Shown here: piece by piece, positions 17,128 to 55,798 of the stretch | Layout: the number at the start of each line of letters is the position of its first letter | How positions within the stretch are numbered: the first letter of the stretch is position 1 | NCBI GenBank assembly: GCA_018970145.1 | Contig: JAGWWY010000002.1 | Location: 372,001 to 436,000, forward strand | DNA length: 64,000 nucleotides | Reading direction: 5' to 3' | From: Gammaproteobacteria bacterium | Lineage (GTDB): Bacteria > Pseudomonadota > Gammaproteobacteria > Steroidobacterales > Steroidobacteraceae | The notes under the pieces: generated by a model | Database searches by the model: none | What the model saw: only the letters and a program-made list of their open reading frames with translations | Told to the model about the DNA's origin: nothing | Position numbers and translations under genes: made by a program

Positions 17128-19923
17128 ATGGATAAGTCCTACTCACCGCTCGACATCGAGCGGCGCATCTACGAGCGATGGGAATCCTCGGGTCTCTTCG
17201 CCCCCGCGGGCGAGGGAGTGGGCTACTCCATCGTGATCCCACCGCCCAATGTCACCGGCACGCTGCACATGGGGCACGCGTTCCAAGACACCATCATGGA
17301 TGCCCTCACCCGCTACCACCGTATGCGTGGCGAGGCGACGTTGTGGCAACCGGGCACGGACCACGCAGGCATCGCCACCCAGATGGTGGTCGAGCGCCAA
17401 CTCGAGGGTGAAGGCTCTAGCCGCGCCGCATTGGGCCGCGACGCCTTCATCGAGCGCGTCTGGAAGTGGAAAGGGGAATCCGGCGGCACGATCGCGCGGC
17501 AGATGCGGCGCCTCGGTGCCTCGGTCGACTGGTCACGCGATCGCTTCACGATGGATGAGGGTCTTTCGCAGACCGTTACCGAAGTTTTTGTACGCCTCTA
17601 CGAAGAGGGACTCATCTATCGCGGTAAGCGATTGGTGAACTGGGATCCGGTGTTGCAAACCGCCGTATCGGATCTCGAGGTGTTGAGCACTGAGGAAGAC
17701 GGATCGCTTTGGCATCTGCGTTATCCATTGGCGGATGGCAGCGGACATCTCGTCGTTGCTACGACCCGCCCCGAGACGATGCTCGGCGACACCGCGGTCG
17801 CCGTGCATCCGGACGATGAGCGCTATCGGCATCTCATCGGACAACAACTGCGGCTACCGTTGACCGATCGAACGATTCCGATCATCGGTGATACGTACGT
17901 CGATCCGGAGTTCGGATCCGGTTGCGTGAAGATCACCCCGGCACACGATTTCAACGACAACGAAGTCGGCGAGCGTCACCAACTCGCCGTCATCAACGTC
18001 TTTACGCCTGACGCAAAAATCAACGAAAACGCACCCGCTGAACTGCAAGGGCTCGATCGTTTCGAGGCGCGCGTGCGCATCATCGAAAAACTGACCGAAC
18101 AGGGCCTGCTCGAGCGTATCGACAAGCACAAGTTGATGGTGCCGCGCGGCGATCGCTCCGGGTCGGTGATCGAGCCGTATCTGACGGACCAGTGGTACGT
18201 CAACATCGCGCCGCTCGCCGAACCCGCCGTCGAAGCCGTGACGTCGGGCAAGATCAAATTTGTGCCGGAGAACTGGTCGCGTACCTACTTCGAATGGATG
18301 CGTAACATCAAAGATTGGTGCATCAGTCGCCAGCTTTGGTGGGGGCATCGTATCCCTGCTTGGTACGACGCCGAGGGGAGGATCTACGTTGGCCGTTCAG
18401 AAGCGGACGTTCGCGCCAAGCACGCACTTGCCGCTAATCTGGCGCTTAAGCAAGACGACGACGTTCTCGATACCTGGTTCTCTTCTGCCCTTTGGCCGTT
18501 CTCGACGCTGGGCTGGCCGCAGTCGACAAGCGAATTACAACGCTTCTACCCCACCTCGGTGCTGGTGACGGGGTTCGATATCATTTTCTTCTGGGTCGCC
18601 CGGATGATCATGATGGGCATCAAGTTCATGGGGGATGTGCCGTTCCGAGAGGTGTATGTGCACGGACTCGTGCGCGACTCCGAAGGCCAGAAGATGTCGA
18701 AGTCAAAGGGCAACGTACTCGACCCGCTCGATATCGTCGATGGCATCGCGCTTGAGGATCTCGTTCGTAAGCGAACGACGGGACTCATGCAGCCGCGGCT
18801 TGCTCCGAGTATCGAAAAGGCCACTCGTAAGACTTTCCCCGATGGCATCGAATCGCACGGCACCGACGCACTGCGTTTCACGTTTGCGTCGCTCGCGACG
18901 CAGAGCGCCGACATTCGATTTGACCTCGCACGGGTCGGTGGCTACCGCAATTTCTGCAACAAGCTGTGGAACGCCGCGCGTTTCGTACTTCTGATGCTCG
19001 AAGATGACACCGGCAAGCCACTCGATCCGCAGCTGTTGAGCGGCGAGATCGCGCCGGGCGTCGTCGATCGGTGGATCGTGTCGCGCTTGGGACATACCCT
19101 GCGCGAAGTCGATCAGGCATTTGCCGACTATCGCTTCGACTATGCCGCTTCGGCACTCTACGAATTCACTTGGTACGAGTTCTGCGACTGGTACCTCGAG
19201 CTCGCCAAGCCGATCCTGCAATCGGAGCAGAGCAGCGAAGCGACGCGGCGCGCCGTCCGTCAGACGCTCGTACAGGTGCTCGAAACGCTGCTACGCGCAC
19301 TGCATCCCTTGATGCCTTTCATCACAGAAGAAATCTGGCAACGTGTAGCACCTCTTGCAGGCACGGCGATGACTCGTGGCGGGACCCTCATGACAGCCCG
19401 TTGGCCTGAGGCCGCTCGATATGGTGCGGACCCGGATGCCGAAGCCGATGTGGCCTGGATAAAAGCCTTCGTGCTCGGTATCCGCCAGATCCGCGGCGAG
19501 ATGGACATCAGCCCGTCGCGCAAACTCAGCGTGCTGATCGAGAATGCGAGTGCCGCCGATCGGCACCGTCTCGACTCGCAAAGCTCTTACCTTGCGCGTC
19601 TCGCGGGTCTTGAATCGTTACGCGAACTCATCACTGGCGAGATCGCGCCACCTGCGGCATTGGCTGTCATCGGTGACATGCGGGCGATGGTGCCCATGGA
19701 AGGCCTCATCGATCCGCAGGCCGAGGTGACACGTCTTGATAAGCGTGCGGCCAAGACACGCGACGAAATTCAGAAGGCACGCAACAAACTCGCCAATGAA
19801 AACTTCGTGCGTAATGCGCCGCCCGAGGTTGTCGCCCAAGAGCACGGTCGCGTCGCCGACTTCGAACGTACTCTCGCGAGTATCGACTCGCAGTTGCAGC
19901 GCGTTCGAGCGCTGCTAAAGTAA
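17128..19923 (+). CDS. valS: valyl-tRNA synthetase
   Basis: Class I synthetase charging tRNA-Val, 931 aa. Motifs: [14 protein letters not shown] (HIGH), the CP1 editing domain (about residues 200-350, [17 protein letters not shown]), [14 protein letters not shown] (KMSKS), an anticodon-binding domain, and the C-terminal coiled coil (about 865-930) typical of ValRS. Nine bases after pepA, so co-transcribed. Confidence 0.96.
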
Positions 19924-19939
19924 CGGCGGTCGATCTCGC

Positions 19940-20758
19940 GTGGCCCGCTTAGTCATCATCCTGCTGCTCATCGCGATCGCGATGGCGTGGTGGTATCTGC
20001 GCAAGAAACGTGGCGGTGTGCCAGCCGAGTCGGCTGCCTCGCGGGCGACTCGCTGGCAGAGCCTGCTGGAGCGTGACTGGCCGATGTGGCAGAGACTTCC
20101 TGCCGATCTGCGCCCCATGCTGCTAGATCGTCTCGCCCACTTCCTCGAACGCATCCCCTTTAATGGTGCGCATGCTCTGGTCGTCACCGAGGAGATGCGC
20201 GTTCTGGTAGGCGCACAAGCTTGCCTCATCACCTTGGGTAACGAGGATTATCCGTTCGACGACCTGCACGGCATCACCCTGCATCGCGACGAATTTGTCG
20301 TCGAAGAGGCTGTGGAGGATGAAGATACGGGTGTTGTCACCGAGGGCTATCAAACCCTGTCAGGTCAAGCCATCGAGGCCGATCGAATCGTGTTGTCATG
20401 GGCGGACGTAATCGAGTCGATGCGTCGCCAGGATGGCTATAACGTCGTCATCCACGAATTCACGCATTTTCTCGAACACACTCGTCCGGGCGGTGATCGC
20501 GCTGCCCGCACAGCTCTCGAGTCTTGCTTGTCAGAGCTGCGTGCCGCAGTCGATCGAGGCGAGCAGACGCTGCTCGACCCATACGGCGCAGAGGACATCA
20601 CGGAGTTCCTGGCGGTCGCCGCAGAGTTTTTCTTTGAGCGTTCGCAAGAATTGCGGGAGCAGCATCCGTTGCTTTATGTCTTGTTGCGCGACAGCTTCCA
20701 TCTTGACCCGGCAAGCTGGGCAGCACCTGTCGCGCTGCCGGCGCAGAACCCGCTCTGA
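19940..20758 (+). CDS. zinc-dependent peptidase, MtfA (M90) family
   Basis: A 272-aa protein with an N-terminal membrane anchor (VIILLLIAIAMAWWYL) and an MtfA-like metallopeptidase domain. The zinc site HEFTHFLEH is clear and the third ligand is likely the Glu in VAAEFFFER. E. coli MtfA is a cytosolic regulator of the glucose PTS that binds Mlc; this membrane-anchored form probably has another role. GTG start at 19940, 16 bases after valS. Confidence 0.85.
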   Translation: MARLVIILLLIAIAMAWWYLRKKRGGVPAESAASRATRWQSLLERDWPMWQRLPADLRPMLLDRLAHFLERIPFNGAHALVVTEEMRVLVGAQACLITLGNEDYPFDDLHGITLHRDEFVVEEAVEDEDTGVVTEGYQTLSGQAIEADRIVLSWADVIESMRRQDGYNVVIHEFTHFLEHTRPGGDRAARTALESCLSELRAAVDRGEQTLLDPYGAEDITEFLAVAAEFFFERSQELREQHPLLYVLLRDSFHLDPASWAAPVALPAQNPL

Positions 20759-20761
20759 TCA

Positions 20762-21355
20762 TCAGCGAAAGTTCTCGGGGTGCCGCGCCATCTCGGCGCT
20801 GAAGAAGGACTTCAGGTGAGCGTAATCGGCCTCGTAATCGTTGCACGGCGACAGCGGCTCGCCGATCAAGACGCGTCGCTGTCCAAAATCGATCGCGACC
20901 GGCACGATCGGCACGCCCGCGGCGAGCGCAATGTAGTGGTAACCCCGCTTCCAACCGTCAACCGCGCCACGAGTTCCCTCGGGGGCGATGACGAGCATCA
21001 TGCTCTCGCGCTTGGCGAATTCGACATTCGAACTCTGCACCACGTTACCGGCCTGACTGCGATCAACGGCGACGGCACCCAGATAACGACCGAGCGGCCC
21101 CCACGGGCCCCTCAATGCCGTGTGCTTAGCCAACCAATTCGCATCGAGACGCAACGCGAAGTAGGTGAGGATACCGACGACGAAATCCCAGTTCGACGTG
21201 TGCGGAGCGACGATGACGACGAACTTCCGCAAACTCGGAAAGTTACCCTCGATGCGCCAACCCATCAGCCATAGGCCAAGGATACCAAAGGGACGACGCC
21301 ACCAACTTCGTACCTGAGGGACATCTCCCGGTGTCTTCGGAAATCGCCGGCTCAT
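20762..21355 (-). CDS. 1-acyl-glycerol-3-phosphate acyltransferase-like protein
   Basis: A 197-aa PlsC-type acyltransferase with the catalytic motif HTSNWD (H-X4-D) near residue 51 and EGTRG near 126. It belongs to the short subgroup lacking long flanking regions, so the acceptor lipid is uncertain. Its ATG overlaps the stop of the upstream transporter as ATGA. Its stop is three bases from that of the convergent MtfA-like gene. Confidence 0.85.
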   Translation of the reverse strand: MSRRFPKTPGDVPQVRSWWRRPFGILGLWLMGWRIEGNFPSLRKFVVIVAPHTSNWDFVVGILTYFALRLDANWLAKHTALRGPWGPLGRYLGAVAVDRSQAGNVVQSSNVEFAKRESMMLVIAPEGTRGAVDGWKRGYHYIALAAGVPIVPVAIDFGQRRVLIGEPLSPCNDYEADYAHLKSFFSAEMARHPENFR

Positions 21356-22614
21356 GTTGAGCTACGTACCTCGGGGACCCGCGACAACAGCAAGCCCCCA
21401 CCCAAAAACAGGATGACGAGCGAGGTAATCGACAGTCGGGAGTCGCCGGTGCCGTACGCGACTGCTGCGATCAACAAGGGACCGATGAAGCTCGCGAACT
21501 TACCCATCATGTTGTAGAAACCGAAGAACTCGCCGCCCTTGCCCTCGGGCACGAGCCTCCCAAAGAATGAGCGCGACAAACTCTGTACACCACCCTGCAC
21601 GAGACCGACTACGACCGCGAGTGCAAAAAACTCGACCACGGAATCGAGAAAGTACGCGTACAGCGTTGCTGCCAAATAAACGCCGATACAAATCAAGATC
21701 CCCTGCTTAGGTCCGATTCGGTTACCGAGCCATCCGAGCAGCAGTGCCGATGGAAAGGCCACGAACTGGGTCAACAGCAGCGCCGCGAGCAAACTCGAAC
21801 TCGGCAAGCCGAGCGCCACGCCGTAATCGACTGCCATCGTATAGATGGTGTGTACGCCGTCGATATAGAGCCAATACGCCAACAGAAACAGCGAGATGTC
21901 GCGATGCGCCCGAATTCGTCTCAGGGTGTTTCCGAGCTCGCGCAGACCTGCCGTCAACGACTCAAAAAACGACTCGCTCTTGGCTTGGCTTGACCGCTCT
22001 CGCACGTGACGAGCGAGCGGGATGGTGAATATCGACCACCACAGGGCGACGCTCAGAAAAGACCATTGCACTGCCTCGGCGGCACTCGACAAACCGAACC
22101 AAGCCGGTTTGAGCGTCATCAGGACATTGAAGGCAAACAAGATACCGCCACCCAAATAGCCCAGCGAGTAACCGAAAGCGGATACCGTGTCGAGTTCTCG
22201 CTCGGAGGCCACATCGAGCAAAAGCGCATCGTAGAAAATATTCGCGGCGTTGAAGCCGATCCCGGCGACGATGAAACAGGCGGCCGCCCAACCCCACTCG
22301 CCCTGCCCGACGAATGACAATACCGCCGTACCCGCAATACCAATGGAACTGAACAAGATGAGCTGCGCTTTGCGACCGGCCGTCCGATCGGCCAAGGCAC
22401 CGAGCACGGGCGCCAGCACAGCCACGACGATCCCGGCTATCCCATTGGCCAGACCCAAACGCGACGTGCTGATCGTCGGATCAACTCCGGTGCTCCAGAA
22501 CTGCTGGAAAAACACCGGGAAAAATCCCGCAAGCACGGTCGTCGCGAACGCCGAATTCGCCCAGTCGTACAACGCCCAGGAAACAGTGTCACGGCGCTTG
22601 TACGGGCTTGTCAT
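21352..22614 (-). CDS. UMF1-family MFS transporter
   Basis: A 420-aa major-facilitator protein with about 12 hydrophobic segments. The N terminus WALYDWANSAFATTV is characteristic of the UMF1 (Atg22-like) group. Substrate unknown; in yeast, Atg22 exports amino acids. Start MTSPYKRRD at 22614 is two bases after the prfC stop. Confidence 0.87.
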   Translation of the reverse strand: MTSPYKRRDTVSWALYDWANSAFATTVLAGFFPVFFQQFWSTGVDPTISTSRLGLANGIAGIVVAVLAPVLGALADRTAGRKAQLILFSSIGIAGTAVLSFVGQGEWGWAAACFIVAGIGFNAANIFYDALLLDVASERELDTVSAFGYSLGYLGGGILFAFNVLMTLKPAWFGLSSAAEAVQWSFLSVALWWSIFTIPLARHVRERSSQAKSESFFESLTAGLRELGNTLRRIRAHRDISLFLLAYWLYIDGVHTIYTMAVDYGVALGLPSSSLLAALLLTQFVAFPSALLLGWLGNRIGPKQGILICIGVYLAATLYAYFLDSVVEFFALAVVVGLVQGGVQSLSRSFFGRLVPEGKGGEFFGFYNMMGKFASFIGPLLIAAVAYGTGDSRLSITSLVILFLGGGLLLSRVPEVRSST

Positions 22615-46801: not shown

Positions 46802-46935
46802 GGTCGTCGACCCGTCCTTAGGTCCGCTGACGCGAGCTCACCACCCGCGTATCGCGTTGAATTATGGGGTGTCGTCGCCTATTCTTCAAAGCCGTTTTTG
46901 TCTGCCTGTCTGCAATCTGCCGGAGAACTCGAATC

Positions 46936-47523
46936 ATGAAAAACCCTCTCGATAGCGTCGGCGCCACAGTCTCCTTGGGTGTGGTGTTTGCGATCATCGT
47001 CATGGCGCTGCCGCAAACCCCCGACGTCGGCGGCTTCAACCACTTAGGTCTCGGTCGCTGGGCGCACATCGTGACCGGCATCTTCTGGATCGGGCTGCTG
47101 TACTACTTCAACGTAGCGCAGATCCCGGCTCTCGCGGCGGCCAATGCCGACACGGGTGGTCCGGGCGGTGCCGGCATCATCAAGTACGTCGCACCCCGCG
47201 CGCTGCTGTGGTTCCGCTGGATGGCGCTCGCCACCTGGATCACCGGTGGCTGGCTGCTCGGTGGAAACCTCCTGAATGCCTTTACGCTGCAAGAGGGTCA
47301 TGTCGTGATCGGTATCGGCGCGTGGCTCGGTACGATCATGCTGTTCAACGTTTGGGTTTTGATTTGGCCGAACCAAAAGAAAGTGATCGGCGTAGTCGAG
47401 GCGACCGCGGAAGAAAAGGCGAAGGCTCGGCGCGTTGCGTCGCTGACCTCGCGCGTCAACTTCTTGTTGTCATTCCCGATGCTGCTGTGCATGGGCGGCC
47501 ACTCGCACGGCCTGCCGTTCTAA
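46936..47523 (+). CDS. PuuD-like (Urate_ox_N-type) integral membrane protein
   Basis: A 195-aa protein with about five hydrophobic segments. The stretch GRWAHIVTGIFWIGLLYYFN resembles the N-terminal membrane domain of PuuD urate hydroxylase, but the cytochrome c domain is missing. Several helix-borne His (ending GGHSHGLPF) could bind heme. SD GGAGA is nine bases before the ATG. Function uncertain. Confidence 0.65.
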   Translation: MKNPLDSVGATVSLGVVFAIIVMALPQTPDVGGFNHLGLGRWAHIVTGIFWIGLLYYFNVAQIPALAAANADTGGPGGAGIIKYVAPRALLWFRWMALATWITGGWLLGGNLLNAFTLQEGHVVIGIGAWLGTIMLFNVWVLIWPNQKKVIGVVEATAEEKAKARRVASLTSRVNFLLSFPMLLCMGGHSHGLPF

Positions 47524-47530
47524 GCAACGG

Positions 47531-49240
47531 TCACGGTTGATAGCGAATCGCCTTTGACGGGTTGCCGCGCGCGATGCACTCGCGTTGCGGCAACCCCTCG
47601 ACGAACCACCAGAGATCGTCGCTGCTCTCCCCAGCAAGGCGTCTGGTGTTCGCCTCGAAACACGGCGCAAGCAGGTACTCGGGCACCAACAAGATGCGCC
47701 CCCTCGTATCGTCGGCAAGCCAACGCGCGGCATCCGCTACCTCCGCCGTGCCCTCTCGCCAACGCGCGTGCCCAAAGTTGGTCACTTCGCGATCGAGGTA
47801 CAACAGGAATTGCTCTTTGTAGCCGACCAGCCCGAGCTCTCGCCCCGGCGGCAACTTCGCGAGCATGCCCTGCGTGAAACCCGAGGCAGATCGCTCGGCA
47901 TTGATCTGCGGCGCGATGAACAGACCCCAATGCATCGTCAAACACGCGAGCACCAACGGCCAAGCGAGTAATGGTCTGCGCCACGTCGCAAAGATCCACA
48001 GCAGCGCGGCGACGATGGCGTAGCTGACGACGGGCCATACATGACCCAATTCGATCTCGGCCCAGGCACGCTCGACGCGGTCGATACCGAGCAGTCGACC
48101 GCCGACGAGCAGCCATGCGGGCACGACGAGCACGGCCGCCAGTACGCACGATGCACGTCGCACGCCCACGCGCCGATAAAGCTCGGGCAAATACGCCGAC
48201 GCGGCCAAGGCCAACGCCGGGAGTGCGGGCAGGATGTAGACGCCCCGCTTGCCCGGGCTCAGGCTGAAAAAGACGATGAGCGAAATCGCCCAAGCAAGCG
48301 GCAGCAACGTCGCAGCGCGTCGCTCCGCAAAGTCCGCGCGCCAGCGCGGCACGAGCCACCAGAGCAGCAAACTCAAGGGTAACCACAGGACCGGTACGAC
48401 CTCGAGCAGGAAGTAGTACCAAGGCCGCAGGTGATGCCAAGCAGCGGTGTAACGGGTCACGGTCTGTTGGAACAACAACTCGTCGCGGTACGCCACCAAC
48501 TCAGCGGATCCGGAATTCGCCACGTGCCAAAGCATCGGCGCGAGCCAAGCAGCCAAGACCAGCGCGAATGCGGCCAACGCCGCTAGACCAAAACGCCAAT
48601 CCGCCGGCGATCGCGTCGGCGACGAACCCTGGGCGAAGATCGCAGGCTTGCGGAGCAACCACCACGCCAGTGGCCAAATGAGCAGTGTCAGGAAGCCGAC
48701 CGCTTTGTCCATGACGCCCAGACCCGCCGCGATACCGCCGAGCACGACGAGGCTGAAGCTCGGCGAAATCAGCCAATGCCGCAGGAAAGCCCACAAGGCC
48801 AGTGTGCAGAAAAAAATCAGCGTAGCGTCGATCTGCGCGCCGCGCGTCGTGATCGTGAAGTGCAAGCTGCAAGCGAGAGTGACTGCCGCGAACAAGCCTG
48901 CCTCGCGCCCGTGCAAGCGCTTGGCAAGATCGTAGACGAGAACCAACGTGCCGAACGATGCGAACATCGACGGCAACAGAAACGACCAGCGCAAAGAACC
49001 GATGATCGAGTAAGCCGCTGCGATCATCCAAAAATGCAACGGTGGTTTATCTTGGTATAGATCGCCGCCCACACGGGGGAACAGCCAGTCGCCCGTTGCC
49101 ACCATGTCGCGCGCAACCGAGGCAAAGCGCGGTTCGTCCGCCGGCCACGGATCGCGCAGACCGAATCCGGCCAGAATCAGCAGCACGAACCACAGCGCGA
49201 TCCAGAGGAGATCCTGCGTCGTGGAGCGAGAAAGGATCAC
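47531..49240 (-). CDS. ArnT-like GT39 glycosyltransferase
   Basis: A 569-aa polytopic protein (about 12 hydrophobic segments) of the PMT/ArnT fold. The N-terminal loop DPWPADEPRFASVARDM matches the ArnT signature with its acidic pair. It would move a sugar from undecaprenyl phosphate to a periplasmic acceptor such as lipid A. Its ATG overlaps the LAB_N gene as ATGA. Sugar and acceptor unknown. Confidence 0.87.
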   Translation of the reverse strand: MILSRSTTQDLLWIALWFVLLILAGFGLRDPWPADEPRFASVARDMVATGDWLFPRVGGDLYQDKPPLHFWMIAAAYSIIGSLRWSFLLPSMFASFGTLVLVYDLAKRLHGREAGLFAAVTLACSLHFTITTRGAQIDATLIFFCTLALWAFLRHWLISPSFSLVVLGGIAAGLGVMDKAVGFLTLLIWPLAWWLLRKPAIFAQGSSPTRSPADWRFGLAALAAFALVLAAWLAPMLWHVANSGSAELVAYRDELLFQQTVTRYTAAWHHLRPWYYFLLEVVPVLWLPLSLLLWWLVPRWRADFAERRAATLLPLAWAISLIVFFSLSPGKRGVYILPALPALALAASAYLPELYRRVGVRRASCVLAAVLVVPAWLLVGGRLLGIDRVERAWAEIELGHVWPVVSYAIVAALLWIFATWRRPLLAWPLVLACLTMHWGLFIAPQINAERSASGFTQGMLAKLPPGRELGLVGYKEQFLLYLDREVTNFGHARWREGTAEVADAARWLADDTRGRILLVPEYLLAPCFEANTRRLAGESSDDLWWFVEGLPQRECIARGNPSKAIRYQP

Positions 49241-49518
49241 GCGTCAGCCTGTTGCTTGCCCGCGCGGATCAAATAAAGATTCCGCAGATAGACCACCAGA
49301 CCCAAGCCCTGCCCCGCGATAAACACCGGGTCTTGCCGGTGGATCGCATAAGCGAGCAAGGTCACGCCACCGGCGAGACTGAAATACCAGAACGCCGTGG
49401 GAATGACGCTGCGCTTGACGCGCTCGCTCGCCAACCACTGCACGAAGAATCGGGCCGAGAACAACGCTTGTCCTAGAAACCCGATCACGATCCAAAGTGT
49501 CGTATCGCTCGCCTGCAT
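49237..49518 (-). CDS. LAB_N (LpxB N-terminal-like) small membrane protein
   Basis: A 93-aa protein with three hydrophobic segments. Motifs FLGQALFSARFFVQWLASE and PTAFWYFSLAGG define the LAB_N family, originally seen fused to LpxB. As a small multi-helix protein beside a GT2 and a GT39, it could translocate the lipid-linked sugar (inference). Start MQASDTT at 49518, one base after the GT2 stop. Confidence 0.88.
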   Translation of the reverse strand: MQASDTTLWIVIGFLGQALFSARFFVQWLASERVKRSVIPTAFWYFSLAGGVTLLAYAIHRQDPVFIAGQGLGLVVYLRNLYLIRAGKQQADA

Positions 49519-49519
49519 A

Positions 49520-50242
49520 TCATTCCTCTCGGATCTGAAGACCACTCTGATGGCGCCTTCGCAGCCACATCACACCAAAGATATCGACGATGCCGACCCA
49601 TAAGCGATCGAACAAACCGTATTTGGACACACCGCGCTCGCGCGGCCGGTGGCGAACCGGCACCGACTTCACCCGACAACCCGCCCGTAAAAACAGTGCC
49701 GGGAGAAAACGATGCATGTGGTCAAAGCGCGGTAAATCCATGAACGCGTCGCGCTGCATCACTTTGATGCCACAGCCCGTGTCGGGCGTGCCATCACCGA
49801 GCAGGGTGCCACGAACACCATTGGCAACGCGCGACTGAACATGCCGCAACCAGGTATCGCGCCGGGACGTTCGATTGCCCATGACGAGCTCGGCCGTATG
49901 TCGCTCGGCGTACAACGCCGGGATATCCGCCGGATCGTTCTGACCATCGCCATCGAGCGTGGCGATCCACGGCGCCCGCGCTGCGCGAACACCCGAACAC
50001 ACAGCGGCGCTCTGTCCACTGCGAAACGAGTGTTTCAACAAGCGAATTTCACCAAGGCCCTCGCGTCTCGCCTGCAGTACGGCAGCCGCCGTCCCATCTG
50101 TACTGCCATCATCAACGAAAAGAATTTCGAAAGGCGTTGCCTTCAGCGCCACCGCGATCTCCCGTGCCAATGGGATGACGTTACCCTCTTCGTTGCAAAC
50201 AGGGATGACGACAGAAATCTCGGGCGTTGCGGAATCGCTCAT
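49520..50242 (-). CDS. GT2 glycosyltransferase, dolichyl-phosphate-sugar synthase-like
   Basis: A 240-aa soluble enzyme. GT-A fold with SVVIPVCNEEGNV, DDGSTDGT and DGDGQNDP (the DXD site). It has no C-terminal transmembrane segments, unlike ArnC. It probably charges undecaprenyl phosphate with a sugar for the ArnT-like GT39. Located 30 bases after the acyltransferase gene. Confidence 0.88.
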   Translation of the reverse strand: MSDSATPEISVVIPVCNEEGNVIPLAREIAVALKATPFEILFVDDGSTDGTAAAVLQARREGLGEIRLLKHSFRSGQSAAVCSGVRAARAPWIATLDGDGQNDPADIPALYAERHTAELVMGNRTSRRDTWLRHVQSRVANGVRGTLLGDGTPDTGCGIKVMQRDAFMDLPRFDHMHRFLPALFLRAGCRVKSVPVRHRPRERGVSKYGLFDRLWVGIVDIFGVMWLRRRHQSGLQIREE

Positions 50243-50272
50243 GGTTTTACTCGTTCAAAGTCAGACGCAAGG

Positions 50273-51160
50273 TCAAACGGACGCACTCGGCGCCTGCAAA
50301 CGCCAACGCTTGTGCGACCAGGGCCAATCTGCCGGCGCTTCACGAATCTGACGCTCGACGCGGCGCGCATACCTCTCGGTGAACTCACCTTCACTGAAGT
50401 TTTCGTCTGCGTGTGACAACGACTCGAAGCGCACACGATAGCGACCACGACCAGTACGCTCGATCGCACAAAAAAAACTGGGGTAGCCGAGTCGCCGTAC
50501 GAGAACTTCAGCACCCATAAAGAAGGCCGACTCGCGATTCAGAAAACGCGTCCAGTAGCGACGATCACTCTCGACGGGCTCCTGATCAGCCACTAGCGCG
50601 ATCAGCCTCGGTACCCGACGACGTGCCAACACATCTCGAGTGAGCTTATCGGCTGGAATCAAACGCGCACCAAAACGACTGCGCAGCGCAAGCATCTCTC
50701 GGTCAGCCCACGGATTTTTCAGAGGTTTGTAGGCCACATCGAAGGGGTGTCCCAATCGACGCGAAATGGCGAGCAGGATCCACTCCCAATTGCATTGATG
50801 CGCCGCGAGCAATAGTGCCGGTGTGCCACCTTCGAGTGTGGCTTGCACCGCCTCGAGACCGACAAGCTCCATCCGCCGATCGAGCTCGGCGCCATCGAGA
50901 GTTGCGGACTTGATGATCTCGATCATCACATCCCCGTAGCCGCGGTAGTAATCGCCCTTGATGTGTTCGCGCGCTGCCGGATCGAGCTCGGGAAATGCCA
51001 ACGCCAAGTTTTCGTCGATGACCCGCGGTCGGTAAGGGAACACCTTGAGCGCCATGAAGGCGAAACCGCGGGAGAGCACATGCAAAGCCCGCATCGGCAG
51101 GCGCGAAATGGCGCGAACCCACCAAGCTGGGATCGGAGCGGATGCGGACTCGGAGGCCAT
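50273..51160 (-). CDS. LpxL/HtrB-family lipid A acyltransferase
   Basis: A 295-aa inner-membrane acyltransferase. N-terminal helix region, then LALAFPELDPAAREH, the catalytic HQCNWE (H-X4-E), and VADQEP. It adds a secondary acyl chain to lipid A or a related lipid. Start MASESASAP at 51160, 35 bases from the divergent phosphatase. Confidence 0.87.
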   Translation of the reverse strand: MASESASAPIPAWWVRAISRLPMRALHVLSRGFAFMALKVFPYRPRVIDENLALAFPELDPAAREHIKGDYYRGYGDVMIEIIKSATLDGAELDRRMELVGLEAVQATLEGGTPALLLAAHQCNWEWILLAISRRLGHPFDVAYKPLKNPWADREMLALRSRFGARLIPADKLTRDVLARRRVPRLIALVADQEPVESDRRYWTRFLNRESAFFMGAEVLVRRLGYPSFFCAIERTGRGRYRVRFESLSHADENFSEGEFTERYARRVERQIREAPADWPWSHKRWRLQAPSASV

Positions 51161-51195
51161 TTCGGTCGCGAGTTTACCGTACAATTCGCGCGAGC

Positions 51196-51882
51196 ATGAG
51201 CACGCTTTTCCTAGTCCGGCACGGCCAGGCCAGCTTCGGCAGCGAGAACTACGATCGACTCTCCCCGCTTGGCGTTCAACAAACGCACCACCTGCGCGAT
51301 CACTTCGTCGAAAACGCGGTCGAACTACACGGAATTTTTAGCGGCCGACTGCAGCGCCAACGCACGACGGCCGACATCCTAGCCGGCCCATCGCAGCGAA
51401 CGGTCGCCGTCTCGGCTGCCTTCGACGAGTACGATGCGCACCGCCTGATGCAACATTACGCAGATATGACGGGCGAGCCTTTGCAGTCGCTGCAGGGCAC
51501 ATCGCAACGGCTCGAGCCACGCATCTTTCAACAACACCTCGAGAAGGTGAGTCGTGCTTGGGTTGCAGAGCAAATCGCAGCACCCGAGCTCGAGTCGTGG
51601 AAGAGCTTTCGTGCTCGCGTCGGTCGCGGCATCGATGACATCACGACCCAGACGCCACGGAGTCAGAATGTCGCCGTCGCCACCTCGGCGGGCGTGATCG
51701 GTGCGGCGATCGCGCATGTCTTAGGACTCGAAGATTTCGCGGCGCTGCAACTGTCCTACGTGGTCCTGAACTCTGCTGTCACGCGGATCGAATTCGATGG
51801 CAGACGCCGCACCCTCTCCTCTTTCAACAGCACGTCACACCTTGAGCGCGCGGGTCGCCGCGAACTACTAACCTATCTCTAG
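51196..51882 (+). CDS. histidine phosphatase family protein
   Basis: A 228-aa phosphoglycerate mutase-like phosphatase. The catalytic His is in LFLVRHGQASFG; FSGRLQRQRTTADIL follows. Substrate unknown; it is monocistronic. TACAAT lies ten bases before the ATG. It overlaps the convergent dehydrogenase by four bases. Confidence 0.88.
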   Translation: MSTLFLVRHGQASFGSENYDRLSPLGVQQTHHLRDHFVENAVELHGIFSGRLQRQRTTADILAGPSQRTVAVSAAFDEYDAHRLMQHYADMTGEPLQSLQGTSQRLEPRIFQQHLEKVSRAWVAEQIAAPELESWKSFRARVGRGIDDITTQTPRSQNVAVATSAGVIGAAIAHVLGLEDFAALQLSYVVLNSAVTRIEFDGRRRTLSSFNSTSHLERAGRRELLTYL

Positions 51883-52961
51883 GCCCTGCCGGTCGAGCCG
51901 GCGGTGTGGTACAGCCCACCGGTGCGTGTCGCGAAAAATCGTGCGAGTGGAATTTCTTCCTGTTTCAGAAAACCCTGTGTCGGTAACAAGCCCTCACGCA
52001 CCATCTCGATGATCGCCACGACCGAGGCCGAGGTCGTCCAGGCGATCGCGGTGCGCGAGCGTCCCTGAATCTCGATCGGCCGATATGCGCGAACAAACTC
52101 GCGCCGCTGCAATCGCCCGTCCGCCCAGCCCTCAGCTGCGGCGTGCAAGTAAACGACATCCGCATCGACAGGCGGCTTGGCATTGGCAAGGATTTGACCC
52201 GCGAGATCACGTCGCTCGCGCATCAAAAGTTCGTGGAAGAAAAAATTCATCAGCTGCACATGACCCGGATAGCGCATAGTTTTGTAGTCGAGATTGGCGA
52301 CTCGACCCTCGAAGGTCTCGCACATCGTCCCGAGACCGCCCGAAGTCGTAAACGCCTCAAGCTGCATGCCGTCGATGTAGAGTGTTTCGATCCACTCCAT
52401 GGCACTGACGGTCTTACGCACGCCCTCTTCGATGACTTCGCAATCGTTGAGATATTCATTGACCACGCCTTCGGGTGACCAATTGAAGGCATAACCGAGC
52501 AAACCCGTCGGATTTTGCGGTAATGCACCGACTCGCAAGCGGATTGAGCGTACACGCTCGAACTGATTGGCGAGATCCGCGCCAACGATCCCGATGAATC
52601 CCGGTGCCAGCCCACATTGCGGCGCCATCAGGGCGCGCGAAGATGCTGCCAGAGTTCGAATGTGCTGCGTCGTCGGCACATCCTCGGTGAGATCGAAGTA
52701 GTGGATACCGAGCTCATGTGCACAGCTCGCCACGCCTCGATTGAGCGCGTAAGGCAAGCACGACAACACGGCATGCTGCTCCGACAAGGCGCGTCGCAAG
52801 GCAGCGCCATCAGCTACGTCGACGATCTCGGCCTGCAACGTGGGCGTCTTGACGGGTCGCCCGTCAATCGGTGTGACGACAAACCCGGACCCCTGCAACA
52901 ACTCGGCGGCCAGATGACCGACCTTACCGAGACCCAAAACAGCGACTTTTTCGATGCTCAT
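51879..52961 (-). CDS. saccharopine / lysine 6-dehydrogenase-family protein
   Basis: A 360-aa NAD(P)-dependent dehydrogenase with Rossmann VAVLGLGKVGHLAAELL and the family region QCGLAPGFIGI. These enzymes give alpha-aminoadipate semialdehyde from saccharopine or directly from lysine. The ALDH7 gene upstream would oxidise that product, which supports lysine catabolism. Which substrate is used cannot be decided from sequence alone. Confidence 0.82.
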   Translation of the reverse strand: MSIEKVAVLGLGKVGHLAAELLQGSGFVVTPIDGRPVKTPTLQAEIVDVADGAALRRALSEQHAVLSCLPYALNRGVASCAHELGIHYFDLTEDVPTTQHIRTLAASSRALMAPQCGLAPGFIGIVGADLANQFERVRSIRLRVGALPQNPTGLLGYAFNWSPEGVVNEYLNDCEVIEEGVRKTVSAMEWIETLYIDGMQLEAFTTSGGLGTMCETFEGRVANLDYKTMRYPGHVQLMNFFFHELLMRERRDLAGQILANAKPPVDADVVYLHAAAEGWADGRLQRREFVRAYRPIEIQGRSRTAIAWTTSASVVAIIEMVREGLLPTQGFLKQEEIPLARFFATRTGGLYHTAGSTGRA

Positions 52962-52971
52962 CCGCCCGCTC

Positions 52972-54468
52972 TCAAATATCGAAGGTCACGCCCTGCGCGA
53001 GCGGCAGATCACGTGAGTAGTTGATCGTCGCGGTTTGCCGACGCATATATCCTTTCCACGAGTCCGAGCCGCTTTCGCGACCGCCGCCCGTCTCCTTTTC
53101 GCCGCCAAAAGCGCCACCGATCTCCGCACCTGAAGGACCAATGTTGACATTGGCAATTCCACAATCAGAGCCCGAAGCGGCCACGAACTGTTCCGCCTCA
53201 CGCAGATCAAGCGTGAAGATGCACGAGGACAAACCCTGCGGCACTGCGTTTTGCATCGCGATCGCATCCTCGAATTGCTCGTACGTCACCACGTACAGAA
53301 TCGGCGCGAACGTCTCCTCGTGCATGACCGCGGTTTGCGCGGGCATCGCGACGATCGCGGGATGCACATAGGTGCCACCCGCAGGCACGCCATCGATCAC
53401 CGTGCCACCGCCCCAGACGTCGCCACCCTCGGCACGCGCACGCTCGAGTGCCGCGTTCATACGCGCAAGAGCCGCCGTATCGATGAGCGGACCGAGCAAG
53501 GTTGTTTTGTCGCGCGGATCACCGATGCGAAGAGACGAGATCGCTTGCTTCAAACGTGCAATCAAAGAATCACGAACCGAGCGATGCACGATCAAACGTC
53601 GCAGCGTCGTACAGCGCTGCCCCGACGTGCCGATGGCCGAGAAGACGATCGCCCGGACCGCCAGATCAAGATCGGCGGACGGTGTGACGATCATGGCACT
53701 ATTGCCGCCCAGCTCGAGAATGCTGCGACCAAATCGCGCCGCGACGATCGGTCCTACGATCCGCCCCATGCGCGTGGAGCCCGTCGCAGAGACGATCGCG
53801 ACCCCTTTCGAGCGCGCGAGCGCCTCACCCTGCTCAGCACCGCCCATCACGAGCTGCACGAGCCCCGCGGGCGCATCAGCACCGAAGCGCTCCAGTGCAC
53901 GCGCGAGGATGCCCATCGTGGCAAGTGCGGTCAGCGGCGTTTTATCCGACGGTTTCCAGATCACCGGATCGCCGCACACCAGTGCGAGTGCCGCGTTCCA
54001 ACACCAGACGGCGACCGGAAAGTTGAACGCCGAAATCACGGCGCAAGGTCCCATCGGATGCCAAGTTTCCATCATGCGATGACCGGGGCGTTCTGAAGCG
54101 ATCGTCAGGCCGTGCAACTGACGCGAGAGACCGACGGCAAAATCGCAAATGTCGATCATCTCCTGCACTTCGCCCTGACCCTCGGAAACGATCTTGCCCG
54201 CCTCGAGCGTCACCAAGGCCGACAAGGCCTCTTTGTCGCGCCGTAGTTCTTCCCCAAAAAGTCGTATGAGCTCGCCGCGACGCGGTGCAGGCAGGTTACG
54301 CCAAAGACGAAAAGCCGCTTGCGCGCGTTCAATCGCCGCCTCGACATCGGACAATTCGGTGATCGGTACTTCGCCGATTTTTTTGCCATCGATCGGCGAA
54401 TGACTGGTGAGTGTGCTGACCGGATTCATGCAGAGCTGCCCCGAAATTCTTGGTTCTGATGAAGCCAT
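52972..54468 (-). CDS. ALDH7-family aldehyde dehydrogenase (aminoadipate semialdehyde type)
   Basis: NAD-dependent aldehyde oxidation, 498 aa. Catalytic ELGGNSAMIV (Glu) and SGQRCTTLRRL (Cys), and the ALDH7/antiquitin-type start SPIDGKKIGEVPI. Together with the adjacent dehydrogenase it would make alpha-aminoadipate from lysine. Start at 54468; an ATG at 54429 is an alternative. It lies 13 bases after the photolyase gene. Confidence 0.87.
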   Translation of the reverse strand: MASSEPRISGQLCMNPVSTLTSHSPIDGKKIGEVPITELSDVEAAIERAQAAFRLWRNLPAPRRGELIRLFGEELRRDKEALSALVTLEAGKIVSEGQGEVQEMIDICDFAVGLSRQLHGLTIASERPGHRMMETWHPMGPCAVISAFNFPVAVWCWNAALALVCGDPVIWKPSDKTPLTALATMGILARALERFGADAPAGLVQLVMGGAEQGEALARSKGVAIVSATGSTRMGRIVGPIVAARFGRSILELGGNSAMIVTPSADLDLAVRAIVFSAIGTSGQRCTTLRRLIVHRSVRDSLIARLKQAISSLRIGDPRDKTTLLGPLIDTAALARMNAALERARAEGGDVWGGGTVIDGVPAGGTYVHPAIVAMPAQTAVMHEETFAPILYVVTYEQFEDAIAMQNAVPQGLSSCIFTLDLREAEQFVAASGSDCGIANVNIGPSGAEIGGAFGGEKETGGGRESGSDSWKGYMRRQTATINYSRDLPLAQGVTFDI

Positions 54469-54481
54469 TATGAAGGATCGG

Positions 54482-55798
54482 CTAGCCTCCGAGCCATAAA
54501 CGCCGGTAAGCCCCGTCGACATCGTACTGGCGTGCTTGCCGATCCGGGTCGAAACGCCGGCCGACGCGCGGATCAGTCCCGCGGCCGCTGACATAGAGCC
54601 AATTACCCTGATTGCTGTAGATGTCGAAGTCGACGAGTTGATGCTCGAACCATGCCGCACCCGCGCGCCAATCACCCGGCTGATCGTGCACCAGATAGCT
54701 GGCGACGTTTTGGCGCAACCGATTGGACAGGTAACCCGTCAGTGCGAGTTCACGCATACCGGCGTCGATAAAACGCTCGCCTGTCGCTCCCTTGCACCAT
54801 TGCAGGAACGCCGATCGATCGTGCCTCGGTACACCCTGCGAACTCAAACCACCAGCGCGGTAGAGATGCTGACCGTGCTGCAAGTGCAGCAGCCGAAAAT
54901 AATCGCGCCACAACAGCTCAAACCAAATCCAATAGGTGCTTTCATTGGCGCCATGCAAGGCTTCATGCGCGCGGAGCGCCTCAAAGACGCGACGGGGCGA
55001 GACTGCGCCACTCGCGAGCCACGGCGAAAACTTGGTGGAATAGTCCAAACCAACCAGCCCATTACGAGTGATCTTGTAAGTTTGCGGCTTGTCGCTCCCG
55101 AAGTAGTCTTGCAAGAACGCGAGCGCCGCTGATTCACCACCGCGACACCGATCGCTCGAGTAGGGAAACGCCGAGCGCGAATCGACGGTAACAACACCCA
55201 CACCCAATGCCGCCTCGATATCGAACTCACTCAGCGCCGCATCCGGCGGCGGTGGCAGCCTCGCGGGCGCGGCAATCGTGGGGCGCGGCGATATCTGTGC
55301 CTTCTCGACTGACTCCCGAAATCGCGTAAAGACTCTCGGTAGTTGCTCGACCTTGAAAGGCAGGTCATTCGGCTCAAGCAACGACGACTGCCAATGCGTA
55401 CGAACATCGAGACCCGCCGCGCGCAAGGCCGTCACATCGGCCTCTTCTTCCGGGGCCGCGATCTGCTCGCAATGAATTTGCTGGATCCCCAAGCGCCGCG
55501 CATGGTCGATGAGCAGCTCGATGCCGCCACCTGACAGTACCGCGACGTGCTGCGGATGATCCCCACTTTGATAACCAGCCAATCGTGACCGCAGATCCTT
55601 CAAGGTGTCGGCGAGCACGCGACGTCGATGCAGACCCATACGCCGATCGGCAAACGGAAGCCAAGAGCTCGGTCTATCGTGTCGCGCATCGTGCAGATAA
55701 ACGAGTGCCAGTTCACTCGCCTCGCTTGCGACGGCCATCAGACCGGGCTGATCGTGCAAACGCAGATCGTGACGAAACCAGTAGAGCGCGCGGGTCAT
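54482..55798 (-). CDS. cryptochrome DASH / photolyase
   Basis: A 438-aa FAD protein of the photolyase superfamily: ALYWFRHDLRLHDQPGL at the N terminus and the FAD-binding C-terminal half. The stretch HQLVDFDIYSNQGNWLY is the CRY-DASH pattern. CRY-DASH proteins repair cyclobutane dimers in single-stranded DNA. The ATG overlaps the DUF2256 stop as ATGA. Confidence 0.9.
   Translation of the reverse strand: MTRALYWFRHDLRLHDQPGLMAVASEASELALVYLHDARHDRPSSWLPFADRRMGLHRRRVLADTLKDLRSRLAGYQSGDHPQHVAVLSGGGIELLIDHARRLGIQQIHCEQIAAPEEEADVTALRAAGLDVRTHWQSSLLEPNDLPFKVEQLPRVFTRFRESVEKAQISPRPTIAAPARLPPPPDAALSEFDIEAALGVGVVTVDSRSAFPYSSDRCRGGESAALAFLQDYFGSDKPQTYKITRNGLVGLDYSTKFSPWLASGAVSPRRVFEALRAHEALHGANESTYWIWFELLWRDYFRLLHLQHGQHLYRAGGLSSQGVPRHDRSAFLQWCKGATGERFIDAGMRELALTGYLSNRLRQNVASYLVHDQPGDWRAGAAWFEHQLVDFDIYSNQGNWLYVSGRGTDPRVGRRFDPDRQARQYDVDGAYRRLWLGG

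Follow-up and report, generated by a model that had tools for sequence, protein, structure and literature searches.

What does a 93-residue protein with a LAB_N domain do between a predicted lipid-sugar synthase and a membrane-embedded sugar transferase? The question is raised by four open reading frames (ORFs), all on the minus strand, that span positions 47531-51160 of the 64,000-nucleotide (nt) stretch of DNA analysed here (the window) and encode, in this order, an LpxL-family acyltransferase, a family 2 glycosyltransferase (GT2), the LAB_N protein and a family 39 glycosyltransferase (GT39). The host is a freshwater bacterium with a genome of 2.43 Mb (94.65% complete), called G000 below, which together with 23 congeners makes up a genus set of 24 genomes. 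GT2, LAB_N and GT39 probably constitute a three-component cassette for sugar transfer from undecaprenyl phosphate (Und-P), with LAB_N as translocase and probably as the synthase's partner in the membrane. The sugar would be a neutral hexose or an N-acetylhexosamine (HexNAc) and the acceptor lipid A or the inner core.

According to this scheme, the GT2, which lacks transmembrane (TM) segments, would move the sugar from a nucleotide sugar to Und-P at the cytoplasmic face, LAB_N would recruit this soluble enzyme to the membrane and move the charged lipid, or help it move, to the periplasmic face, and the ArnT-like GT39 would pass the sugar to lipid A or the inner core. The divergent LpxL-family enzyme would be a partner outside the cassette, with secondary acylation of the same lipid A as its probable role. 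An order of action from GT2 via LAB_N to GT39 had been proposed in an original prediction made from the window alone, and it agrees with the co-occurrence of the genes, their overlaps and the ArnT-like catalytic residues described below.

Inheritance of the GT2-LAB_N-GT39 unit

Pfam matches (Lip_A_acyltrans 121 bits, Glycos_transf_2 84, LAB_N 116, PMT_2 67), the first in-frame ATG of the acyltransferase gene at 51160 and the GT39 stop codon ending at 47531 bear out the types, common direction and ends that had been given for the four genes. The gap between the acyltransferase and GT2 genes is about 30 nt, the LAB_N ATG (49518) lies 1 nt past the GT2 stop, and the GTG start of GT39 (49240) overlaps the LAB_N stop (GTGA), a spacing that suggests translational coupling of the four genes. 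No promoters or terminators above chance were detected at the cassette.

LAB_N is present in 17 of the 24 genomes. A cassette-type GT2, defined by a score above 250 bits or by two pieces at one place as in G021, was found in all 17 of these and in none of the seven others. A GT39 accompanies LAB_N in 17/17 genomes as well and is absent from six of the seven genomes lacking LAB_N, the exception being G019 with two other GT39s, one of them inside an arn-type operon. G000 has neither a uridine diphosphate (UDP)-glucose dehydrogenase (Ugd) over the cut-off nor a convincing ArnB. In 15 of the 17 genomes the divergent acyltransferase gene lies immediately before GT2, and in G011 it is about 2 kb from GT2; of the seven genomes without cassette, six have kept this gene, and in G007 (87% complete) a housekeeping-type acyltransferase alone was found. 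The acyltransferase was considered as a fourth component and rejected, because G017 carries the cassette without it and it occurs in six congeners that lack the cassette. What is conserved is the unit GT2-LAB_N-GT39, with the acyltransferase as an often-present, separable neighbour, so that the three-gene core of the four-gene cluster proposed earlier stands and its fourth member does not.

The frame aceE-pyrC-rnt-grx-membrane protein-slot-LpxL-histidine phosphatase was kept wherever the contigs reach, except in G011, which has the cassette at another place, and in G017, which has an insertion and no LpxL. Where the cassette is missing, the slot holds a heptosyltransferase-like family 9 glycosyltransferase (GT9) in G009, G010 and G015 (L052, L053, L054) or a sulfatase-fold protein closest to phosphoglycerol transferase I in G016 (L055), or it is empty (G019 and G022). 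In the backbone tree of flanking genes, G022 groups with G013/G018 and G019 with G005, and the GT9 species form one clade; the gene trees are built on short proteins. Since G019 and G022 sit beside cassette-bearing sisters and the GT9 species fall together, the pattern suggests that the three cassette genes were repeatedly lost or replaced together while LpxL stayed; regain in G005 is also possible.

For a wider view, the best-scoring 80 of 562 LAB_N relatives were examined as named loci, a choice biased to close relatives and including three congeners (L071, L072, L119). A GT2 gene adjoins LAB_N in 73 of the 80, with the order reversed in L141 (LAB_N, then GT2), and a GT39 gene lies within 1.5 kb of LAB_N in 51, on the same strand in 48 of these. 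The arrangement is far beyond chance, because it recurs in congeners and because of the frequency of this GT2-LAB_N pair. Carriers belong to the Gamma-, Alpha- and Betaproteobacteria, Rokubacteria, Nitrospirota, Acidobacteria, Omnitrophota and Halanaerobium; Salinicola and Halomonas are examples of environmental genera among them. Among the seven named loci without GT2, L086, L134 and L147 lie near a contig start. L077, L085, L105 and L130 have a LAB_N gene without adjacent GT2 and are seemingly genuine orphans.

The proteins of the cassette

The GT2 of G000 contains no TM-like segment, scores 90.5 bits against the GtrB PHROG and 89.6 bits against ArnC, and has ArnC and sll0501 among its PDB matches; it is predicted to be of the polyprenyl-phosphate monosaccharide (PPM) synthase type. 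All 73 GT2s adjacent to LAB_N in the named loci likewise lack TM-like segments, with a maximum 19-residue hydropathy of 1.6 and a median length of 247 residues (from domain start to stop, L107 being cut by its contig). In contrast, eight of nine control GT2 ORFs of the genus away from LAB_N, a set that includes overlapping frames of one locus, have at least two TM-like segments and carry two of them C-terminally, and the ninth starts at a contig end. The exclusive pairing with TM-less GT2s indicates that LAB_N may also be the membrane anchor of the synthase.

LAB_N matches PF07578 over the whole profile (1-71 of 71; 115.8 bits, cut-off 26.7) and was modelled as three helices with a predicted local distance difference test score (pLDDT) of 91.5. 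When a 77-row LAB_N profile was compared with 177,635 PDB sequences, five matches with E ≤10 were obtained, all SemiSWEET (E 0.039-0.47), although three of the five are titled only as transport or uncharacterised proteins; the assignment follows the structures in the Foldseek list, except for 4qnd, which we take to be a SemiSWEET structure. Alignment by hhalign with 20 MtN3 proteins was collinear over 74 columns (E 0.0048, probability 7.4), compared with 12-14 columns in reversed controls (E 0.066-0.074), and placed the invariant Gln27 of LAB_N on the Gln of the PQ motif; Arg23, Asp63 and Asn80 of LAB_N are likewise invariant. In Foldseek, SemiSWEET took the top rank (E 0.24). Taken together, these results are suggestive of a resemblance to the SemiSWEET/PQ-loop family, which includes eukaryotic MPDU1 and shares the three-helix unit with LAB_N, whereas LAB_N has no PQ motif and the individual scores are not significant. 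A single LAB_N sequence compared with the PDB gave chance-level matches only, to poly(ADP-ribose) glycohydrolase.

Three-component systems use GtrA, small multidrug resistance (SMR) or multidrug and toxic compound extrusion (MATE) flippases (excerpts of PMC11127046 and PMC7389260), and flipping in these systems is described as unproven in the excerpted text of the former (PMC11127046). An excerpt of PMC7176098 places GtrA and SWEET in one superfamily. No paper treating LAB_N together with a glycosyltransferase was found in the open-licence PMC literature, which does not prove that nothing is in print, and the excerpts found there of three papers naming the LAB_N domain describe no function in sugar transfer. 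Pathways of this kind are known; the literature searched offered no explanation for LAB_N or for the fact that it pairs exclusively with TM-less synthases. We infer that LAB_N is a translocase and probably the membrane partner of the GT2, flippase activity being a guess.

With the GT39 profile, ArnT was the sole PDB match (E 1.8e-54), and D35/E36, K65 and Y335 of GT39 align with D55/E56, K85 and Y345 of ArnT (numbered as chain index minus three, as derived from the alignment), residues whose catalytic and lipid-phosphate roles are given in an excerpt of PMC7801869. The GT39 model (pLDDT 90) matched Und-P-bound ArnT best (Z 35.4, 507 aligned, 3.8 Å) and Pmt4 next (Z 26.5), and its residues 4-550 cover the ArnT fold including the periplasmic domain.

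Acceptor, sugar and alternative explanations

G000 makes lipid A, as evident from its LpxK (341 bits), and contains two PF03279 genes, a housekeeping copy on contig C17 and the divergent one beside the cassette. The latter matches PF03279 with 121 bits (cut-off 22.3), is 25% identical to the housekeeping LpxL and has the sequence HQCNWE at residue 121, an HX4E version of the HX4(D/E) motif of the LpxL/HtrB family. Against the curated LpxL model TIGR02207 (cut-off 297.8) it reaches 79.6, and the housekeeping copy (260.5) stays below the cut-off too. On contig C15 (about 17959-21845; L157:7960-11846), a GT39, an LpxF-like PAP2 protein and a second GT39 are encoded in a row, with a divergent PhoX upstream. 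Among NCBIfam models this PAP2 comes nearest to LpxF, with 73.5 bits, which is less than the cut-off of the model. G006 has a GT39-PAP2-GT39 set too and G003 has PAP2-GT39, and the C15 locus looks like a second site of lipid A dephosphorylation/glycosylation. No Pho box above chance was found near this locus or near the cassette. Because a second strong GT2 of the cassette type is lacking in G003, and G000 and G006 have only partial matches near 75 bits, the GT39s of the C15 type may share the same donor lipid. An unrelated row in G024 (L062:1-2726), encoding a phosphopantetheine-carrier protein, a GT2 and a distant LpxL-family protein, presumably resembles aryl-polyene clusters.

As to the sugar, G000 has no Ugd over the cut-off (best PF03721 match 20.5 bits, cut-off 27, compared with 96-223 for clear ones) and no convincing ArnB: the best PF01041 match, 34 bits, is partial (22-145 of 360), though over the low Pfam cut-off of 19.8, compared with 372 bits for ArnB of G019. 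The G000 GT39 has no match to Arnt_C (PF18583) and scores 86.5 bits against ArnT, and congener arn operons reach 225-236 bits for ArnT and 332-335 for ArnC, where the G000 GT2 has 89.6; the NCBIfam cut-offs for ArnC and ArnT are failed by these operons too. Such arn-type operons occur in G019 (L212:447-8524) and G005 (L211:4645-8758) at loci of their own. In G019 the operon encodes ArnT with Arnt_C, ArnB, ArnC, a formyltransferase, a dehydrogenase and a deacetylase, and adjoins an LptF/LptG permease gene; ArnC, ArnB and ArnT were checked in G005, which also carries the LAB_N cassette. Two PF01522 matches lie elsewhere in G000, and a NodB-type deacetylase (PF01522) is absent from the cassette-bearing G003, G014 and G020 (completeness ≥97%), G003 having neither Ugd nor such a deacetylase. 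If one sugar serves the whole genus, the most likely candidates, judging from these gene inventories, are neutral hexoses and HexNAc (Glc, Gal, Man or GlcNAc).

Several observations count against parts of the scheme preferred here, and three alternatives to it have to be weighed. LAB_N might anchor the soluble GT2 in the membrane or activate it, as a counterpart to DPM2/DPM3 of eukaryotes, and the lipid would then be moved by an unrelated protein or by none. We consider this unlikely, yet it would account for the TM-less state of all 73 partners, as opposed to the C-terminal TM pair of eight of nine controls, and for the near-invariant adjacency of GT2 and LAB_N. It is opposed by the SemiSWEET transporter resemblance, which is convergent, but each link is weak (best E 0.039; Foldseek E 0.24; hhalign probability 7.4), and a second structural comparison (VIA) gave no SemiSWEET among the 50 matches listed. 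An anchor would also leave the flipping step unfilled. G000 has no GtrA (PF04138), which usually acts as flippase in three-component systems, and among the 24 genomes this family was found in G011 and G017 only, in a search that did not extend to SMR/EamA or MATE proteins. LAB_N occupies the position of GtrA.

Lipid A, which the original prediction had named as the target, is our best guess for the acceptor, with the core next, because of the ArnT-like fold, the slot beside LpxL and the LpxF-like locus; the slot and the C15 locus strengthen the proposal, whereas the acyltransferase no longer counts as part of the cassette. ArnT-like GT39s can, however, have other acceptors. An LpxL-family gene lies within 10 kb in only five of the 80 named loci, three of them congeners, and LpxL adjacency is a lineage trait. 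The phosphoglycerol-transferase-I-like protein and the GT9 as swap partners indicate a possible role of the slot in core or periplasmic glycans instead of lipid A. It is conceivable, if improbable in our view, that the cassette has inner-core sugars, O-antigen sugars or a protein as its target and that its proximity to LpxL is incidental, as its occurrence without LpxL in G017 and most named loci, its replacement by a heptosyltransferase-like GT9 in three genomes and the relation of GT39 to protein O-mannosyltransferases (Z 26.5) would allow. Against such acceptors stand the distinctly better match of GT39 to ArnT (Z 35.4) than to any protein O-mannosyltransferase, the constant position of the cassette next to LpxL in 15 of 17 genomes and the C15 locus of G000, where two more GT39s flank an LpxF-like PAP2. 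Modification of lipid A with aminoarabinose (Arn) or galacturonic acid (Rgt-like) from supply genes elsewhere would fit with ArnC and ArnT as closest named relatives of GT2 and GT39. UDP-glucose dehydrogenase adjoins the GT2-LAB_N pair in L113 (10364-11671) and L139 (10281-11588), both of Brucella/Rhizobiales, and lies near it in L084 (6800-8125), which suggests a uronic-acid donor in these lineages, so that the sugar may differ between lineages. For G000, aminoarabinose and uronic acid were rejected because no PF03721 match over the cut-off and no PF01041 match above 34 bits exist, which refutes this route unless both Ugd and ArnB are encoded in the 5% that the assembly lacks. Since, in addition, six of the 12 LAB_N-bearing genomes searched (G000 included) lack a UDP-glucose dehydrogenase over the cut-off and G005 and G019 have their arn-type operons apart from any LAB_N cassette, with far higher ArnC/ArnT scores, we regard it as extremely improbable. 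The earlier exclusion of an aminoarabinose route thus extends from the window to the genome, with the congener arn operons as internal contrast.

Flanking genes, related systems and significance

The coordinates of the cassette and of the genes at both edges of its slot are collected in Table 1.

Table 1. Features of the cassette locus (positions in the window)
Feature	Position	Strand	Remarks
Divergent LpxL-family acyltransferase (PF03279)	50273..51160	-	295 aa from ATG 51160
TM-less GT2 (PF00535), predicted PPM synthase, ArnC/GtrB/DPM1-like	49520..50242	-	240 aa
LAB_N protein (PF07578)	49237..49518	-	93 aa; three membrane helices predicted; may translocate Und-P-sugar and/or serve the GT2 as membrane partner
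ArnT-like GT39 (GT-C) transferase (PF13231)	47531..49240	-	569 aa
Membrane protein, partial Urate_ox_N match	46864..47523	+	Conserved flank, one edge of syntenic slot
Histidine-phosphatase-family protein	51142..51882	+	Conserved flank, other edge of syntenic slot

Beyond the slot, the window encodes a saccharopine-dehydrogenase-like protein (51879-52961) and an L-piperidine-6-carboxylate dehydrogenase (52972-54675; NF050084, above its cut-off), a pair (51879-54675) with a probable function in lysine catabolism. A defence or phage origin of the cassette was rejected: PADLOC gave no defence match for any of the four proteins, and among PHROGs the GT2 alone matched, mainly GtrB.

The cassette resembles GtrA-GtrB-Gtr O-antigen glucosylation, and its lipoteichoic acid/wall teichoic acid and pentofuranose analogues, in combining a PPM synthase, a small membrane protein in the flippase position and a GT-C transferase in one cluster. 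It differs in that LAB_N replaces GtrA, SMR or MATE, the synthase lacks the C-terminal TM pair, the transferase is ArnT-like and the neighbours point to lipid A or core. With the Arn pathway (ArnC-ArnEF-ArnT) it shares an ArnC-like GT2 and an ArnT-like GT39 in which the catalytic and lipid-phosphate residues are conserved, whereas its genome has no convincing ArnB and no Ugd over the cut-off, Arnt_C has no match in the cassette, the GT2 is soluble and LAB_N is present. Transfer of galacturonic acid to lipid A by rhizobial RgtE/RgtF(/LpxE) likewise uses a polyprenyl-phosphate-sugar synthase and a GT39-type transferase; there the sugar replaces or caps a lipid A phosphate, to which the PAP2-GT39 locus elsewhere in G000 is a parallel. 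Unlike this system, G000 lacks a UDP-GlcA source (no Ugd over the cut-off). In the Lgm system of Bordetella, a deacetylase gives free glucosamine. According to excerpts of its descriptions, lgmA-D, which place glucosamine on lipid A phosphates, are also a small locus with an ArnT-type enzyme (lgmB), and LAB_N is not mentioned in the excerpted descriptions of RgtE/RgtF.

A bolder reading, which we hold to be rather doubtful, is that LAB_N proteins are widespread unrecognised PPM translocases, PQ-loop/SemiSWEET counterparts of MPDU1, that work with soluble GT2s only and replace both the TM anchor and GtrA. In this genus, one Und-P-hexose pool might then feed up to three GT39s, including the pair flanking the LpxF-like phosphatase near phoX, and lipid A phosphates would be removed or capped with a neutral sugar, giving these freshwater bacteria a phosphate-sparing lipid A.

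The passage of polyprenyl-phosphate sugars across membranes is a long-standing question, for which GtrA, SMR, MATE and MPDU1 proteins have been proposed and little has been proven. The cassette is widespread, and the step of its tiny protein seems not to have been worked out. Next to a divergent LpxL, members of one small-genome genus have the cassette, a GT9, a sulfatase-fold transferase or no such gene at all, which suggests switching of outer-membrane chemistry at the species level. The domain name 'Lipid A biosynthesis N-terminal' may be questioned, as it says little about the probable function of LAB_N, which with 93 residues and a near-constant tie to a soluble synthase would offer a very small test object for lipid-sugar flipping.

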